Shown here one piece after another: positions 6,119 through 35,150 of a stretch of 64,000 nt of DNA (position 1 is the stretch's first letter; every line of letters begins with the position of its first letter). The stretch spans positions 379,501-443,500 of the forward strand of contig NZ_FUZU01000002.1 in NCBI RefSeq assembly GCF_900167975.1. The letters are read 5' to 3'. The stretch comes from Ohtaekwangia koreensis (lineage in GTDB: Bacteria; Bacteroidota; Bacteroidia; Cytophagales; Cyclobacteriaceae). A program made the position numbers and the translations under genes. Under the pieces are notes generated by a model that searched no databases, was not told the origin of the DNA, and was given only the letters and a program-made list of their open reading frames with translations.

Positions 6119-7318
6119 CTATTGTGATGTTACCCAACGAACGAAAAATCCGAGTAGCAATCCACCCAGAATAATAAGGGGAGAAGGAATTTTTGTAAAA
6201 GCCAGCAATAGAAACGTTGCTATAGTAACGCTGAAATTCATGACTGTATTTTCCAACGGCTGAAAGAGTATAACAGCAGAAGCTGCTACTAATCCTGAAC
6301 TGGCCGCAGTTATGCCTTCGAGTGATGCGCGCACAGCGCGATAACGTTTCAGACTTTCCCAGAAGCGAATTACAAAGAAGATGAGAAATGTACCGGGAAG
6401 AAAAATTCCGAAAGCAGAGACGAGTGCTCCTATAATTTCTCCACCTGTACCATACTCCCTCATAGACAATGCTCCTATATAGGAGCTGAATGAAAATACA
6501 GGTCCGGGTAATGATTGCGCAATGGCATAGCCTGATAAAAATTCTCCTGAAGTTAAATATTGCTTCGGAGCGTATTGAACAAACTCGGTATATAACAACG
6601 GAGTGAGTACTTGCCCGCCACCGAAAATAAGACTTCCGTTACGGTAAAAATTTTCGAACAACCGTACCGGTAAAGCTTTTGTTATACCACCCAACGCTGC
6701 GGCAAAGATCAATACACCTGCCCACAATAAAAAGTTGGCCCAAGGCACTACAATTTTTACCTTCTCTTCCTTGGGTTGTTTTTTATACTTCAATGCGGTA
6801 AGCAAACCTGAACATAACAATATAACCGGGAACACATAGGGTGTTTGTATCAGGTATGAAAGTATAGCCGCTATAATCATAAGGACTACAGCTGTTTTTG
6901 TACGAATCGTTTTTTGAATGATCATATAGGCACCATAGCTCACGAAGCCAACGGCCATCGGTTGTATAAACCGTGTAAATTCAAGCGACCATTTTTTTTC
7001 TTCGATGCTCGACATAAGCATGGCAGCTAACGTCATGAGTATAACTGCAGGAAGAATCCATACAATCAGTGTGAGGTATGCGAGATTAGGACCGCCTATC
7101 TTAAAACCAATTGCTGTTAAGGTTTGTGTAGAGGTAGGGCCGGGAAGAATCTGACAGAGGGAATTGATCTCCATCAGATCGTCCTCCGTCAGATATTTCC
7201 GTTTATCAACGAGTACTTTTTGAAAATGAGCCAAGTGAGCCTGCGGTCCACCAAACGTAGTAACCGCCAGCATCAGCACATCGCGCAAGAAGATATAGTA
7301 TCGAACCCGCTCGATCAT
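6119..7318 (-). CDS. chrA: chromate transporter, two-domain ChrA
   Basis: A 399-residue inner-membrane protein with two fused CHR domains, the long-chain form that exports chromate. The first half has FGGPQAHLAHF and LPGPTSTQ near residues 22-60. The second half repeats the pattern as IFGGGQVLTPLL and QSLPGPVFSF. About ten hydrophobic segments are spread over the two halves. It ends 13 bp from the convergent small gene upstream and lies 46 bp downstream of the 2OG oxygenase gene on the same strand, so the two may be cotranscribed. Transport of anions other than chromate cannot be excluded. Confidence 0.92.
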   Translation of the reverse strand: MIERVRYYIFLRDVLMLAVTTFGGPQAHLAHFQKVLVDKRKYLTEDDLMEINSLCQILPGPTSTQTLTAIGFKIGGPNLAYLTLIVWILPAVILMTLAAMLMSSIEEKKWSLEFTRFIQPMAVGFVSYGAYMIIQKTIRTKTAVVLMIIAAILSYLIQTPYVFPVILLCSGLLTALKYKKQPKEEKVKIVVPWANFLLWAGVLIFAAALGGITKALPVRLFENFYRNGSLIFGGGQVLTPLLYTEFVQYAPKQYLTSGEFLSGYAIAQSLPGPVFSFSSYIGALSMREYGTGGEIIGALVSAFGIFLPGTFLIFFVIRFWESLKRYRAVRASLEGITAASSGLVAASAVILFQPLENTVMNFSVTIATFLLLAFTKIPSPLIILGGLLLGFFVRWVTSQ

Positions 7319-7364: not shown

Positions 7365-8336
7365 TTATTTTTTTAAACCTATCTCGCGCAAGCGTTGATC
7401 GAGAAATTCACCTGCTGTTATATCTTCCCACTGCTTTGGATTTTCTGAATCCACACAACTCTCCAGCGATGCAAGACTCATCTCTGAACGTGGGTGCATA
7501 AAGAAAGGTATAGAGTAGCGTGGTGTGTTCATCAACTGGCGTGGTGGATTGACAACGCGATGTATAGTTGATTTTAATTTCTCATTGGTGAGCCGCTCCA
7601 GCATGTCTCCTACATTTACAACAAGCTGATCAGGCAATGCCGTGATCGGAATCCACTTGCCATCTCTGCGAAGTACTTGCAGTCCATCTGCACTTGCACC
7701 CATGAGCAGTGTGATCAGATTTATATCACCATGTTCTGCAGCGCGCACAGCATCCTCGGGAACAGCATCCGGATTTTCAATCGGATAATAATGGATAGGT
7801 CGTAAAATACTATTGCCGTGTTTGATCTTGTCGTCAAAATAATTTTCAGGCAACTCCAGGTATAGCGCTATAGCCCGTAACATATAGGTACCTGTCTTTT
7901 CAAGCGCGCGGTAAACTTCAACACTTACCTTCTCCAACTCAGGAACTTCGCTGGGCCAAACATTGGCAGGGTAATTTTCTTTTGCAAGTTCTGAACCCGG
8001 CAAGTCTTGACCTACGTGGTAAAACTCCTTGAGGTCACCGGTGTTTCTTCCCTTGGCATGTTCTTTCCCTTTACCGGTATATCCGCGTTGGCCGGCCATG
8101 TCGGGTCTTTCATACTTTTTCTTTACATCATCCGGCAATGCGAAAAAACTTTTAATGGCTTTGTAAAGATCCTGCTGCATAGCATCCGTGAGGAAATGAT
8201 TCCGGATGGCTACGAAGCCAATATTATGATATGCTGCACCGAGGTCGGCTACAAACTTATTTTTTCTTTTATCATCACCACCATGGTAGTCCGCCAGATC
8301 AAGTGAAGGAATTTCATCATATAATATTTCATTCAT
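7365..8336 (-). CDS. 2-oxoglutarate/Fe(II)-dependent oxygenase (isopenicillin N synthase family)
   Basis: A 323-residue non-heme iron oxygenase. The metal triad is H202-G-D204 and H259 (STIHRVV), and R273-Y-S275 is the RxS clamp for 2-oxoglutarate. The N-terminal part (AAYHNIGFVAIRNH) is the DIOX_N-type domain. I chose the ATG at 8334-8336 (MNEILYDEIPSLDL). The longer open frame to 8546 runs through the start of the divergent superoxide dismutase and has no family-like sequence. Relatives act on small metabolites, but this one has no biosynthetic neighbours, so the substrate is unknown. Confidence 0.9.
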   Translation of the reverse strand: MNEILYDEIPSLDLADYHGGDDKRKNKFVADLGAAYHNIGFVAIRNHFLTDAMQQDLYKAIKSFFALPDDVKKKYERPDMAGQRGYTGKGKEHAKGRNTGDLKEFYHVGQDLPGSELAKENYPANVWPSEVPELEKVSVEVYRALEKTGTYMLRAIALYLELPENYFDDKIKHGNSILRPIHYYPIENPDAVPEDAVRAAEHGDINLITLLMGASADGLQVLRRDGKWIPITALPDQLVVNVGDMLERLTNEKLKSTIHRVVNPPRQLMNTPRYSIPFFMHPRSEMSLASLESCVDSENPKQWEDITAGEFLDQRLREIGLKK

Positions 8337-8445: not shown

Positions 8446-9174
8446 ATGAAAACAACCCGAAGAGAATTTGTGCAGCAAGCCTTCAAAGCTACAACCCTTA
8501 CAGCGCTCGGAACGTCATTGGCCTTTAAGGCTTTTTCAGAAACCACGTCTTCACAGTCCGGTATAATACCAGGATCAGCACTCCAGTTTTCGCAGGTTAG
8601 TCTGCCCTATGCGTATGGAGCATTGGAACCTTCCATTGATGCAACCACGATGGAGATTCATTATACCAAGCATCATACCGCTTATATAAAAAATGTAAAC
8701 GAAGCGATCGCTGCTGATAAAATAACTTTTGAGTCGGAGAAAGATTTTTTTGCCAACGCTTCCAAGTTATCTGCGAAAGCAAGAAACAACGGTGGGGGTG
8801 CATGGAATCATAATTTCTTCTGGCAAGTAATGAAGCCTGGCAGTGCTGCACCTACAGGCAAGGTAGCCGATGCTATCAATGGTTCTTTCGGATCGTTCGA
8901 TAAATTCAAAGAACAATTTACACAGGCAGCGATGACGCGCTTTGGTTCTGGCTGGGCCTGGTTAGTAAAAGATGGAGGCAAACTAAAGATCGGTTCAACG
9001 CCTAACCAGGATAATCCGCTTATGGATGCAAGTGATTTGAAGGGTACCCCGCTACTTGCGTTAGATGTATGGGAGCACGCCTATTATCTCAAGTATCAGA
9101 ATAAACGCAATGAGTATGTTGCTAACTGGTATAATGTTATTAATTGGGATGAAGTAGCAAAACGACTCGCGTAG
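8446..9174 (+). CDS. sodA: superoxide dismutase, Mn-type, Tat-exported
   Basis: A 242-residue Fe/Mn superoxide dismutase that disproportionates superoxide. Metal ligands by family alignment are H72 (MEIHYTKHH), H122 (WNHNFFW), D207 and H211 (DVWEHAYY). Metal-type markers favour Mn: Gly at the position where Fe enzymes carry Gln (NNGGGAWNH), and Gln188 in PNQDNP. Residues 1-31 form a twin-arginine leader (TTRREFV, then ATTLTALGTSLAF), so the protein should be folded first and exported to the periplasm. It is divergent from the 2OG oxygenase, with 109 bp between starts. A strong inverted repeat follows the stop codon. Confidence 0.95.
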   Translation: MKTTRREFVQQAFKATTLTALGTSLAFKAFSETTSSQSGIIPGSALQFSQVSLPYAYGALEPSIDATTMEIHYTKHHTAYIKNVNEAIAADKITFESEKDFFANASKLSAKARNNGGGAWNHNFFWQVMKPGSAAPTGKVADAINGSFGSFDKFKEQFTQAAMTRFGSGWAWLVKDGGKLKIGSTPNQDNPLMDASDLKGTPLLALDVWEHAYYLKYQNKRNEYVANWYNVINWDEVAKRLA

Positions 9175-9185
9175 CGTTTAAAAAT

Positions 9186-9244
9186 ATCCGTCATAACATC
9201 GATTGATCTATATATATAGTAATTCAAGCCTTGTTATGACGGAT
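9186..9244. repeat. 13-bp inverted repeat with central CTATATATATAG
   Basis: ATCCGTCATAACA (9186-9198) is the exact reverse complement of TGTTATGACGGAT (9232-9244). The 33-bp spacer holds a second perfect palindrome, CTATATATATAG (9208-9219). It lies 11 bp after the sodA stop and 11 bp before the next ATG. It could be a terminator, a processing site or a leader hairpin of the downstream gene. There is no classic T-run, only TTATTATT after the second arm. Confidence 0.7.
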
Positions 9245-9255
9245 TTATTATTCTT

Positions 9256-9957
9256 ATGAAGCCTCTCCGAATAGCGATCATTGGTGACTATACCGATAGC
9301 AAACATACACACCGCGCATTGAACGATGCGATCGAACACTGCAGAGGGCACCTGAGTTTTCCCTTCGAAGCAACGTGGGTTGCCACCGATGTAACCCCGG
9401 AACCGGCATCTCTGCCAAAATATACCGATGGCATCTGGATCGCTCCAGGTTCGCCCTATAAAAATGATGAAGCTGTATACCGGATTATACAATGGGCACG
9501 TGAAAATGATTTTCCGATCTTCGGTACCTGCGGCGGTTTTCAGTATATGGTTGTGGAGTACGCTAAAAATATACTCGGAATACAAAATGCCGGTCATGAG
9601 GAGAGCGAACCTGACGCGCCACAACTTGTAATTTCTAAATTAAGCTGTTCATTAAAAGGTCAGCAGGAAGAGGTTATTATTACAGATAAAGAATCGTGGC
9701 TATATACTATATTAAAGAGCGATGTTATTACCGGTTTCTTTAATTGTAACTACGGTGTTAACGCTGCCTATAGAGACAAACTTCAACACCCACCGTTTGT
9801 ATTCACCGCCTTTTCTCGTGATGGAGAAGTACGCGGCTTAGAATTGAAGGGGCATCGATTTTTTAAAGGCACTCTTTTTCAGCCTCCGCTGGATTCCTCT
9901 TTGGAGAAACCCAATGCCCTAATCATGGATTTTTTTCGAAGTGTAAAAAGTCACTAA
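9256..9957 (+). CDS. CTP synthase C-terminal-related amidotransferase-like protein
   Basis: A 233-residue standalone class I glutamine amidotransferase-like protein of the group annotated as CTP synthase C-terminal region-related (seleno)protein. It keeps the nucleophile elbow FGTCGGFQ with Cys92, where some relatives carry selenocysteine. The C-terminal catalytic HPE motif of true amidotransferases is replaced: GTLFQPP has Gln209 and Pro211 where His and Glu belong. No synthetase domain is attached or adjacent. Glutaminase activity by the usual triad is therefore unlikely, and the Cys may serve redox chemistry or another role. It follows sodA at 81 bp and may share its transcript. Confidence 0.85.
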   Translation: MKPLRIAIIGDYTDSKHTHRALNDAIEHCRGHLSFPFEATWVATDVTPEPASLPKYTDGIWIAPGSPYKNDEAVYRIIQWARENDFPIFGTCGGFQYMVVEYAKNILGIQNAGHEESEPDAPQLVISKLSCSLKGQQEEVIITDKESWLYTILKSDVITGFFNCNYGVNAAYRDKLQHPPFVFTAFSRDGEVRGLELKGHRFFKGTLFQPPLDSSLEKPNALIMDFFRSVKSH

Positions 9958-10012: not shown

Positions 10013-10429
10013 TTAAATGCTTTTCAGGTAGGCTTCCATTTTTGCACAATCATGAAATTGTGATATCTGAATGCCCTTCATTGTACGGGAAGATTTGTCC
10101 TTGATGGTATTTGCAGCAATCTTTGAAAAGATATCGGCTTCATTCACAAGCTGAACATGAATCAGATCTTTACCATTGAGATGTTTTACCATACCCGGCA
10201 AAAGATAGTCGACAACCATTTTTTGCGACTCGGTGCTAATAACACCCATCTTCCGAATATCTGCTACAAATTTTACAGTTTGCAGCTTGACGAATGCGTT
10301 TAACAGAGCCATGTTAATCATAACAAATTGCTCATGATTAACAACTTTGTTCGTATACTCCAAGAATAGAGTGTCAAGCGGGGTATCATAATATATTCGT
10401 GCGCTTTGGTTTTCAAAAAGGTTCTGCAT
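10013..10429 (-). CDS. STAS-like small protein, tandem copy A
   Basis: A 138-residue soluble protein of the STAS/SpoIIAA-like type found in Bacteroidota. The start is taken at ATG 10427-10429 (MQNLFENQS), matching its neighbour; a 6-codon longer form from 10447 is possible. Two beta strands (ARIYYDTPLDTLFLEYTNKV) are followed by helices and VKFVADIRKMGVIS, and the C-terminal helix is AKMEAYLKSI. By hand alignment about two thirds of positions equal those of the next gene upstream. The role is unknown. Such proteins are often small partners of signalling systems, but no kinase or phosphatase is adjacent. Confidence 0.8.
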   Translation of the reverse strand: MQNLFENQSARIYYDTPLDTLFLEYTNKVVNHEQFVMINMALLNAFVKLQTVKFVADIRKMGVISTESQKMVVDYLLPGMVKHLNGKDLIHVQLVNEADIFSKIAANTIKDKSSRTMKGIQISQFHDCAKMEAYLKSI

Positions 10430-10471
10430 GCTCAAATGTATCCCCAATATGATATATATACGTATGCTTCT

Positions 10472-10888
10472 CTAAACGCTTCTTAAATATGTTTCCATTT
10501 TAGCGCGATCTGTGAATTGGAGCACCTGAAAGTCTGGAATAGTATTTTGTGAGTTCTCTTTAATTTTATTACCAGCCAGTTTCGCGAAAATTTCAGACGC
10601 ATCCATTAATTGAATAACAACAGGCTTTTTCCCGTTGAGATGTTTTACCATACCTGGCAAAAGATTATCAACAACCCACTTTTGTGACTCGATGCTGATA
10701 ACACCCATCTTCCGAATGTCTGCTACAAATTTTACAGTTTGCAGTTTGCACATTGCGTTTAATACAGCCGTATTAATGACAACAAATTGCTCATGGTTAA
10801 TGACTTTATTTGTGTACTCCAGAAACAGAGTGTCAAGTGTAGCATCAAAGTATACTTGTGCGCTTTCGTTTTCAAAAAATTTTTGCAT
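10472..10888 (-). CDS. STAS-like small protein, tandem copy B
   Basis: A 138-residue paralogue of the gene 42 bp downstream (about 92 of 138 positions identical by eye, with an uninterrupted shared run KLQTVKFVADIRKMGVIS). The start is the ATG at 10886-10888 (MQKFFENES). A TTG two codons earlier is less likely because copy A aligns from this ATG. The C-terminal third (after HLNGK) has diverged most, which suggests that the surface there was re-specialised after duplication. The two probably form one transcript. Function not assigned. Confidence 0.8.
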   Translation of the reverse strand: MQKFFENESAQVYFDATLDTLFLEYTNKVINHEQFVVINTAVLNAMCKLQTVKFVADIRKMGVISIESQKWVVDNLLPGMVKHLNGKKPVVIQLMDASEIFAKLAGNKIKENSQNTIPDFQVLQFTDRAKMETYLRSV

Positions 10889-11283
10889 GTTCAAATTCTT
10901 TTAGTAGAGATCTTGCCATTAAAATAGGGTGCATAGCTACAACAATTTCAGAAGGGAAAAGAGGGGCAATTTTCAGTTAACATACCCTTGTAGGTTGATT
11001 GACGGGGTATATTTATATATAACCAATTACATGGCAAATGATCCCAGCAGACATATTGTTCAGTCTGGTATCTATATCACTGATTGAATGGAATTATCAC
11101 TATATTTTATACCGTCTGAAGGGGTATACTATATACAGAAGGTTGTTAAACCAAATTTTTCTTACACAAATGCGGTTGTCAGCCAGTGGTCCTTCAAATA
11201 CATATATAGCACATGGCTGCGATGGCCTATACAGTTTATATATGAATCCGCCTATATTGTTGATTACCGGTTTGCCGGGATGT
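10889..11283. other. intergenic stretch without a supported gene
   Basis: About 395 bp between STAS-like copy B and the stop of the third STAS-like gene. It is AT-rich with many TATA words. Open frames of 72-101 codons occur on the plus strand, but their composition is low-quality and one runs into the neighbouring gene, so I do not call them. It presumably carries the promoter for copy B on the minus strand. I see no clear -7 element there. Confidence 0.5.
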
Positions 11284-11730
11284 TTACTTATCCGATATGG
11301 ATTTGAATGCTCCACTTTCCACACCGTTCCTCTGCTTTGGTAAAACAACCCACCGAATAGCATCTTGCATTCTGTTGAAGTAAGCATACGACACATCGTT
11401 GTCAGCCTCCGACATCATGTCGTCCATTGACATCTTTGAAAAGATATCTTCCGAAACTATAAAGGAAACTTTAGAATGGCCGACCGCAATTGCCAGGCTT
11501 CGCCATTCTTTTGCAGACCATTGTTGATCCTCTTGAAGAATAATACCAAGATTTATAGCATCATAAACCAACCTTCCTGTTTTGAATTTCTCCATGGCAT
11601 CGATCATGGCCATCAACCCGGTTCTATACTCATCTGAAGTAGGAGCGAGCTTCCAGGTGCCTATCAGAATATGATGTTTGGAATCGTACTCAATAGTCTT
11701 GTAATCGGTATCAAAATAAGTTGTAATCAT
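11284..11730 (-). CDS. STAS-like small protein, divergent third member
   Basis: A 148-residue protein with the same general plan as the tandem pair: an opening beta hairpin (TIEYDSKHHILIGTWKLAP), a helix containing MAMIDAMEKFKTGRLVYDAINLG, then EDQQWSAKEWRSLAIAVG and a strand SKVSFIVSEDIFSKMS. Sequence identity to the pair is low, so this is a fold-level rather than recent relationship. It resembles STAS-like proteins that many Cytophagales carry in several copies. The start is ATG 11728-11730. Its position 395 bp upstream of the pair suggests a loose cluster with separate transcription. Function unknown. Confidence 0.72.
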   Translation of the reverse strand: MITTYFDTDYKTIEYDSKHHILIGTWKLAPTSDEYRTGLMAMIDAMEKFKTGRLVYDAINLGIILQEDQQWSAKEWRSLAIAVGHSKVSFIVSEDIFSKMSMDDMMSEADNDVSYAYFNRMQDAIRWVVLPKQRNGVESGAFKSISDK

Positions 11731-34667: not shown

Positions 34668-35150
34668 ATGGCCGAAGAACTTATCATTTCAACATCCGCC
34701 AGTAAAAAGGAAAGATACGATATACTCATTCCACAGATTGAATCATTGGTAGACGGTGAGCCGGATGCGGTAGCCAATCTTTCAAACATTGCAGCGGCAT
34801 TAAAGCAGTCGATGAATTTTTTCTGGGTTGGATTTTATATCGTAAAGAATGATCAACTCGTGCTGGGGCCTTTTCAGGGACCAATCGCTTGTACCCGTAT
34901 AAACTTCGGCAAAGGTGTTTGTGGTGCTTCCTGGAAAGAAAAGAAAACGATTCTCGTTCCGAATGTCGATGAGTTTCCAGGTCATATCGCATGTAGCTCT
35001 GCTTCGAAATCAGAAGTTGTTTTGCCTGCTTTTAAAAATGGAGAAGTTGCTCTCGTGCTGGATGTTGATAGTGATATACTGGACGACTTTGATGAGACAG
35101 ACTGTGAATCATTAGAGAAAGTTATGCGCATTATTGAAAAATTGCTGTAA
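34668..35150 (+). CDS. msrC: free methionine-(R)-sulfoxide reductase (GAF domain)
   Basis: A 160-residue GAF-fold enzyme reducing free methionine-R-sulfoxide with thioredoxin. The three active-site cysteines are C75 (PIACTRI), C85 (GKGVCGAS) and C109 (GHIACSSAS). The spacing of 10 and 24 equals that of the E. coli enzyme (84, 94, 118). NFFWVGFYIV is the family start block. It begins the operon with the MutS-like gene, whose ATG lies 6 bp after this stop. A methionine-repair role in oxidative stress is established for the family. Confidence 0.93.
   Translation: MAEELIISTSASKKERYDILIPQIESLVDGEPDAVANLSNIAAALKQSMNFFWVGFYIVKNDQLVLGPFQGPIACTRINFGKGVCGASWKEKKTILVPNVDEFPGHIACSSASKSEVVLPAFKNGEVALVLDVDSDILDDFDETDCESLEKVMRIIEKLL

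Follow-up and report, generated by a model that had tools for sequence, protein, structure and literature searches.

In the glutaminase half of CTP synthase (PyrG, here CTPS), a His/Glu pair is catalytic, and Gln383, Glu403 and Arg470 (E. coli numbering) bind glutamine. NCBIfam also holds a family, NF004836 (PRK06186), under the name 'CTP synthase C-terminal region-related (seleno)protein'; in the literature searched, one limited library, no functional study of this family was found, and a truncated CTPS is reportedly present in Listeria, a single mention in one paper. A passage of PMC9138612 ties four CTPS residues, Arg470, Arg468, Thr438 and Arg440, to activation by GTP. The original prediction for the DNA analysed here—a 64,000-nucleotide stretch of the Ohtaekwangia koreensis genome, called the window below—held that the family includes members with selenocysteine (Sec) at the position of the nucleophile cysteine (Cys92 in the window protein), and passages of PMC12013277 and PMC13188914 bear this out, as printed predictions. 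The former gives a predicted selenoprotein 'glutamine amidotransferase (COG0504)' in Desulfosediminicola ganghwensis, and the relevant part of the latter lists that protein with NF004836 and a GxUxG motif. In DJ-1 (PARK7), as a section of PMC9856005 describes it, the nucleophile-elbow residue C106 is followed, 20 residues on, by H126.

The window protein shares with the glutaminase half of CTPS the whole fold, the nucleophile elbow and the equivalents of Gln383, Glu403 and His506, but it has no synthetase domain and no His515, and its C131, C164 and H114 are new. With NF004836 it shares the clade and the same invariant residues, and differs in its score, 249.8 bits against a curated cut-off of 260, which it therefore does not reach, and in the tripeptide QPP. 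Its GTCGG corresponds to the GxUxG given in print for D. ganghwensis, with Sec there and Cys here. DJ-1, as described in that section, likewise has a flavodoxin-like fold with an elbow cysteine, and its Cys-to-His spacing is 20 where that of the window protein is 22; by analogy, the Cys92–His114 layout would resemble Cys106–His126 of DJ-1.

The protein, its fold and its family

The gene is the following:

9256..9957, + strand: standalone CTPS-type glutamine amidotransferase (GATase)-like protein, 233 aa, identified from the ORF, NF004836, Pfam GATase and the structural model

The frame is open over 244 codons and its product is free-standing. The best NCBIfam match is to NF004836 (1.7e-74, residues 4–229 of 233), the second to CTPS (107 bits against a cut-off of 462.75); Pfam GATase matches at 1.3e-09, and the closest solved structures by sequence are CTPSs. 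Orthologues straddle the 260-bit line of NF004836. Among ten relatives scanned, seven are at or above it (L032, at the line with 260.0, L034 with 264.4, and L066, L067, L070, L075 and L081) and three are just below (L068 at 259.1, L080 at 253.8 and L079 at 252.0). In a 40-row tree, a 100/100 branch splits 19 family rows from 21 CTPS rows, and members that pass the cut-off (L034, L066, L067, L070, L075 and L081) sit within the window protein's side; L068 and one CTPS have long branches. Judged by sequence, the window protein is a member of the NF004836 clade that falls slightly under the automatic naming line.

The family set behind these counts comprises 19 distinct sequences from 30 copies (29 loci plus the window; 11 duplicates): nine from Bacteroidota, three from Gammaproteobacteria (Methylobacter, Klebsiella and Enterobacter), two from viral contigs and five from Actinomycetota. 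The CTPS comparison set comprises 54 distinct sequences from 55 loci, 51 of them from Bacteroidota, and the tree took 21 of the 54. Public records label several family proteins 'CTP synthase', which is misleading because neither the synthetase domain nor the glutaminase triad is present.

An AlphaFold2 model, built from an alignment of eight sequences, has a pLDDT of 92.6 and a pTM of 0.91. Its residues 1–233 match residues 287–539 of E. coli CTPS (VIA-align: Z 30.9, rmsd 2.0, 228 aligned), so that the comparison with the CTPS GATase proposed at the outset gave a CTPS-type fold. PuuD and SpuA share this fold at Z about 21. On the model, the protein appears to be a complete CTPS-type amidotransferase domain, remodelled and not degenerate.

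Could it nonetheless be a fragment? That the gene represents a decaying, functionless piece of a pyrG duplicate is so improbable that we give it hardly any weight. Only the C-terminal half is present, and catalytic residues are missing, as such a piece would have it, but the clade extends across three phyla with new invariant residues, and the gene evolves slowly at the protein level: against the orthologue at L031, dN is 0.008 and dS 0.157 (dN/dS about 0.05), from which we conclude that it is under purifying selection. L031 is the informative pair, the NG86 estimate of dS being saturated, with no value, for L033–L035, and 2.3 for L032. The same genome also carries a separate full-length CTPS frame of 541 codons, and the window gene is therefore not one part of a split enzyme. 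A split or fragmentary pyrG was rejected on this ground and on that of the conserved, remodelled site.

Active-site residues

Residues were placed by a MAFFT alignment to E. coli CTPS, with the numbering checked at G352, E403, R470, H515 and E517. The positions concerned are:

9445..9459, + strand: P-G-S-P-Y (residues 64–68), the family form of the CTPS oxyanion/lid start (PGFG or PGGFG); P64, S66, P67 and Y68 in 19/19 family sequences, G65 in 17/19

9529..9531, + strand: Cys92 codon (TGC) in the nucleophile elbow FGTCGGFQ, equivalent to E. coli CTPS Cys379, with Sec reported there in some relatives; Cys in 19/19 family and 54/54 CTPS sequences

9595..9603, + strand: H114-x-E116, candidate replacement base; H114 in 18/19, E116 in 18/19

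9646..9648, + strand: Cys131, invariant, in a loop shorter than the CTPS L13 region; Cys in 19/19 family and 0/54 CTPS sequences

9745..9747, + strand: Cys164, invariant, equivalent to CTPS His469 of the RHRHRYE motif; Cys in 19/19 family sequences, His in 54/54 CTPS

9880..9888, + strand: Q209-P210-P211 (in GTLFQPP), replacing the catalytic HPE; Q209 aligns with CTPS His515 and P211 with Glu517

The original prediction described an intact elbow around Cys92 and a change of HPE to QPP, and both are there in the ORF and the alignment. It also held that the catalytic His and Glu are lacking. This is true of the window protein, which has the fold and the nucleophile cysteine of a class-I glutamine amidotransferase but not the catalytic His and Glu of the triad. 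For the family it is true of the His only: the His515 column has Gln in 17 sequences, Val in two and His in none of the 19, against His in 54/54 CTPSs, whereas the Glu517 column has Glu in nine, Pro in seven, Gln in two and Ser in one. Nine of the ten family rows from outside Bacteroidota retain the Glu; the window protein has Pro. The window copy is thus not special within its family. Since the missing His is a long-standing feature of the family and comes with new invariant residues, the site looks remodelled, not dead.

Candidates for a catalytic His and Glu elsewhere in the fold are H114 and E116. The H114 column corresponds to CTPS Ser401 (Ser in 53/54 CTPSs) and holds 18 His and one Asp in the family; the E116 column corresponds to Glu403, which is Glu in 54/54 CTPSs and in 18/19 family sequences. 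In the model, His114 is carried on a strand at 112–114. The exception in both columns is the long-branched L068, with D and Q; lacking H114 and E116, this copy may have another function yet. The exact CTPS counterpart of Cys131 is uncertain because the loop lengths differ.

Most of the residues tied to GTP are gone. The CTPS motifs RHRHRYE and GG(T/S)(M/L)RLG are mostly lost in the family: Arg470 in 18/19 sequences (kept in 1/19), with Arg468 kept in 0/19, Thr438 in 4/19 and Arg440 in 1/19. Gly354 and Gly357 of the CTPS lid are lost in 19/19. Other CTPS-like residues are retained, Gln383 in 19/19, Glu403 in 18/19 and Gly352 in 17/19 (Ala in the other two). Together with the Cys379 equivalent in all 19, these are what might be expected of a residual glutaminase or a glutamyl-thioester trap, a protein that would bind glutamine, form an acyl-enzyme and act as a sensor or as an ammonia source for another protein. 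There is a parallel in SpuA, of the same fold, a His-to-Asn mutant of which was solved with a glutamyl-thioester (7d50, from the entry title). With His515, both lid glycines and nearly every Arg470 gone, however, and no conserved synthase partner, we judge this explanation unlikely.

Selenium does not enter into the window gene itself. Cys92 has a TGC codon, there is no in-frame UGA, and neither SelA (best 38.9 against a cut-off of 267.9) nor SelB (best 191.7 against 242.25) is found over its cut-off in the genome; readthrough with Sec was accordingly rejected here. No Sec member of the family was found in the collections searched.

Distribution and neighbours

Members are rare in Bacteroidota. 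Of 59 relatives in the phylum, 58 match the protein at E 0.001, almost always by way of CTPS; short stand-alone frames (235–285 codons) are present in 8/59 genomes, namely 7/7 of the window's genus, its own genome included, and one of another genus. A frame of 311 codons in G040 has 25% identity. A search by family alignment picked out two of the 390 genomes sampled from the order (the window's and G619; E 1e-55) and, of 395 from the class, just the one that contains the window (E 1e-58). Among the matches listed for the phylum, 0/395 exceeded the NF004836 cut-off, a figure that is not proof of absence, the window genome being in the set and itself under the cut-off.

Beyond Bacteroidota, a plasmid collection yielded Klebsiella, Enterobacter, Methylobacter, Streptomyces, Streptantibioticus and Nonomuraea (16 stand-alone-looking records, of which eight were compared, the other eight coming from the same species or genera). 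The family alignment also brought up L075 and L076, two loci on viral contigs, where the gene stands beside phage or bacterial genes (ORFs judged by eye). A search with the single protein gave no viral relative—five pattern stretches, none confirmed—and the idea of a phage gene was dropped. No counterpart of the Klebsiella copy was found in the E. coli genomes. This scattered distribution suggests that the gene may have moved by horizontal transfer.

On the upstream side, the window gene has these neighbours:

8446..9174, + strand: Fe/Mn superoxide dismutase (SOD; Pfam Sod_Fe_N and Sod_Fe_C), upstream neighbour, not a conserved partner

9186..9244, + strand: hairpin between the SOD and GATase-like genes, ending 11 nt before the ATG; 13-bp stem, -22.6 kcal/mol

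A gene following an SOD, with one hairpin between them, is what had been described, and the arrangement is as stated. The SOD has a twin-arginine-like leader at its N-terminus, judged by eye. The hairpin (z -5.74 against 200 shuffles) is also present in three related species, L031–L033. By alignment, L032 and L033 have one G-C pair changed to A-T, on both sides, and a T-A changed to T-G. A terminator scan covering loops of 3–8 only did not list it, and promoter-like matches in the 1.8-kb region were no more frequent than chance (6 found, 4.9 expected). Since the hairpin ends so near the ATG, there is little space after it for a promoter; termination of the SOD transcript with read-through, and an attenuator, are both possible.

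Whether this neighbourhood is conserved had been named as a check, and the link proved shallow: the SOD gene is adjacent, directly upstream, at 4/19 family loci, the window and L031–L033, and the idea that the gene generally forms an operon with SOD was rejected. At L034, L035, L079 and L080 a divergent gene resembling methionine-R-sulfoxide reductase is near instead, as immediate neighbour in the first two and beyond a cupin gene in the others; the L034 protein matches PDB 3mmh (2e-48), and no NCBIfam match was found for the sulfoxide-reductase-like protein. The window has a copy of its own, a GAF-type protein, at 34668–35147 (+), 25 kb distant. The window's clade counts eight loci, seven of them in genomes of its own genus and one in a neighbouring genus. 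All eight have either the SOD or the sulfoxide-reductase-like gene beside or near the GATase-like gene and, on the opposite flank and no more than 5 kb away, RibD followed by PrmC. Neither gene is seen at 11/19 loci, L081 and the ten outside Bacteroidota; the stretches of L069, L075, L076 and L081 were short on one side in this survey. The oxidative-stress setting claimed for the gene holds, then, in one Bacteroidota clade, and not across the family.

Several other genes nearby deserve mention. The gene is followed by two ORFs of about 140 aa, tandem paralogues (10013–10447 and 10472–10894, both -; 63–65% identity across the orthologues of the pair in L031), the first with no confident Pfam family; L032 has one such copy, L031 and L033 have two, and none was found in the L034, L035, L079 and L080 stretches. 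A protein of 148 aa (11284–11730, -), SpoIIAA-like by a match below threshold, occurs once in the window and in L031, twice in L032 and three times in L033, with none found in the same four stretches. On the other side are a single-gene chromate efflux transporter (6119–7318, -; TIGR00937, 206 bits against a cut-off of 171.7) and, adjoining it, an ORF at 7365–8336 that appears by eye to encode a 2-oxoglutarate/Fe(II) oxygenase and has no NCBIfam match.

In other phyla the surroundings differ, and there is no partner gene common to all. A LysR gene is divergent at three of the five actinobacterial loci (L070, L071 and L073; none was seen adjoining the gene at L074 and L068), and, within Bacteroidota, an AraC gene lies just upstream at L081. 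Regulators so placed suggest a self-contained, inducible enzyme. The Streptomyces copy, L068, has aroA and iPGM as neighbours; on this plasmid (L068:2480–6705) the order is hyp-aroA-iPGM-hyp-GATase-like, with successive genes overlapping by 4 bp.

The Klebsiella neighbours are DUF488 and a divergent homologue of 2-thiouracil desulfurase (DUF523), enzymes that use an Fe-S cluster. This bears on one explanation of the new residues, that a metal or an iron-sulfur cluster is coordinated next to the former active site by His114 and the three cysteines, the protein being a metal-dependent enzyme or sensor. Three invariant cysteines with a near-invariant histidine would suit such a site, but the DUF523 neighbour is not conserved and we know of no cluster motif with the spacing 92/131/164; we consider it improbable.

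Possible chemistry

The reading toward which we lean, tentatively, is that of a thiol redox or thiol-transfer enzyme, with a Cys92–His114 dyad and with Cys131 and Cys164 as redox or ligand partners. A CTPS-type GATase domain, freed from its synthetase partner, would have become an independent small-molecule thiol enzyme. Cys92 would still be the reactive thiol, with its activation passing from the classical His/Glu pair to His114 (with Glu116), on the strand that follows the nucleophile helix; what CTPS uses to handle glutamine and GTP would for the most part have been lost; and Cys131 and Cys164, at the pocket rim, would serve as resolving thiols or ligands. It is this placing of the two cysteines that would make thiol redox or transfer chemistry on a metabolite likelier than hydrolysis of glutamine. 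In the window's clade the enzyme may have a part, with its neighbours, in the response to redox damage.

We count in favour of thiol redox chemistry the invariance of C131 and C164, the replacement of His515 throughout the family and the loss of most GTP-linked residues; the modelled fold, the 100/100 branch, the separate CTPS and the purifying selection; and also the predicted Sec in relatives, the LysR/AraC loci and the redox-related neighbour at all eight loci of the clade. Against it we count the glutamine-site residues Gln383, Glu403 and Gly352, mostly kept; the true glutaminases of other families, whose folds lie no farther off than those of PuuD and SpuA (Z about 21); L068, without H114 and E116; the neighbours, which vary by phylum; and the Sec forms, which are printed predictions. 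The earlier suggestion that the cysteine may do redox chemistry is consistent with two further invariant cysteines that none of the 54 CTPSs has, and draws less from the neighbourhood, limited as that is to one clade. Its broader form, a cysteine-dependent enzyme, stands.

A DJ-1- or PuuD-like cysteine hydrolase or lyase, which would use the same new Cys–His dyad without any redox step and take an ester, anhydride, isocyanide or gamma-glutamyl compound as its substrate, is possible, if doubtful. Cys92 and the near-invariant H114/E116, with PGSPY at the oxyanion/lid start, would be equipped for it, PuuD and SpuA are hydrolases of the same fold, and the regulators, LysR or AraC, present at loci of a single gene are in keeping. 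It leaves the invariant C131 and C164 and the Sec version unexplained, however, and no DJ-1/PfpI family is among the Pfam matches of the window protein to E 0.1.

Taken at its widest, the preferred reading of a thiol redox or transfer enzyme would make NF004836 a distinct enzyme class, in which the glutaminase site has been replaced by a Cys/Sec92–Cys131–Cys164–His114 centre: a thiol/selenol oxidoreductase, or a thiol enzyme with a bound metal, whose substrate would be a small metabolite, in Cys forms here and Sec forms elsewhere. We offer this as a rather speculative proposal. Three invariant cysteines and predicted Sec variants point to uncharacterised thiol or selenol chemistry on a well-known fold. 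C92, H114, C131, C164 and Q209 make the reading directly testable, and the Cys form needs no selenium machinery.
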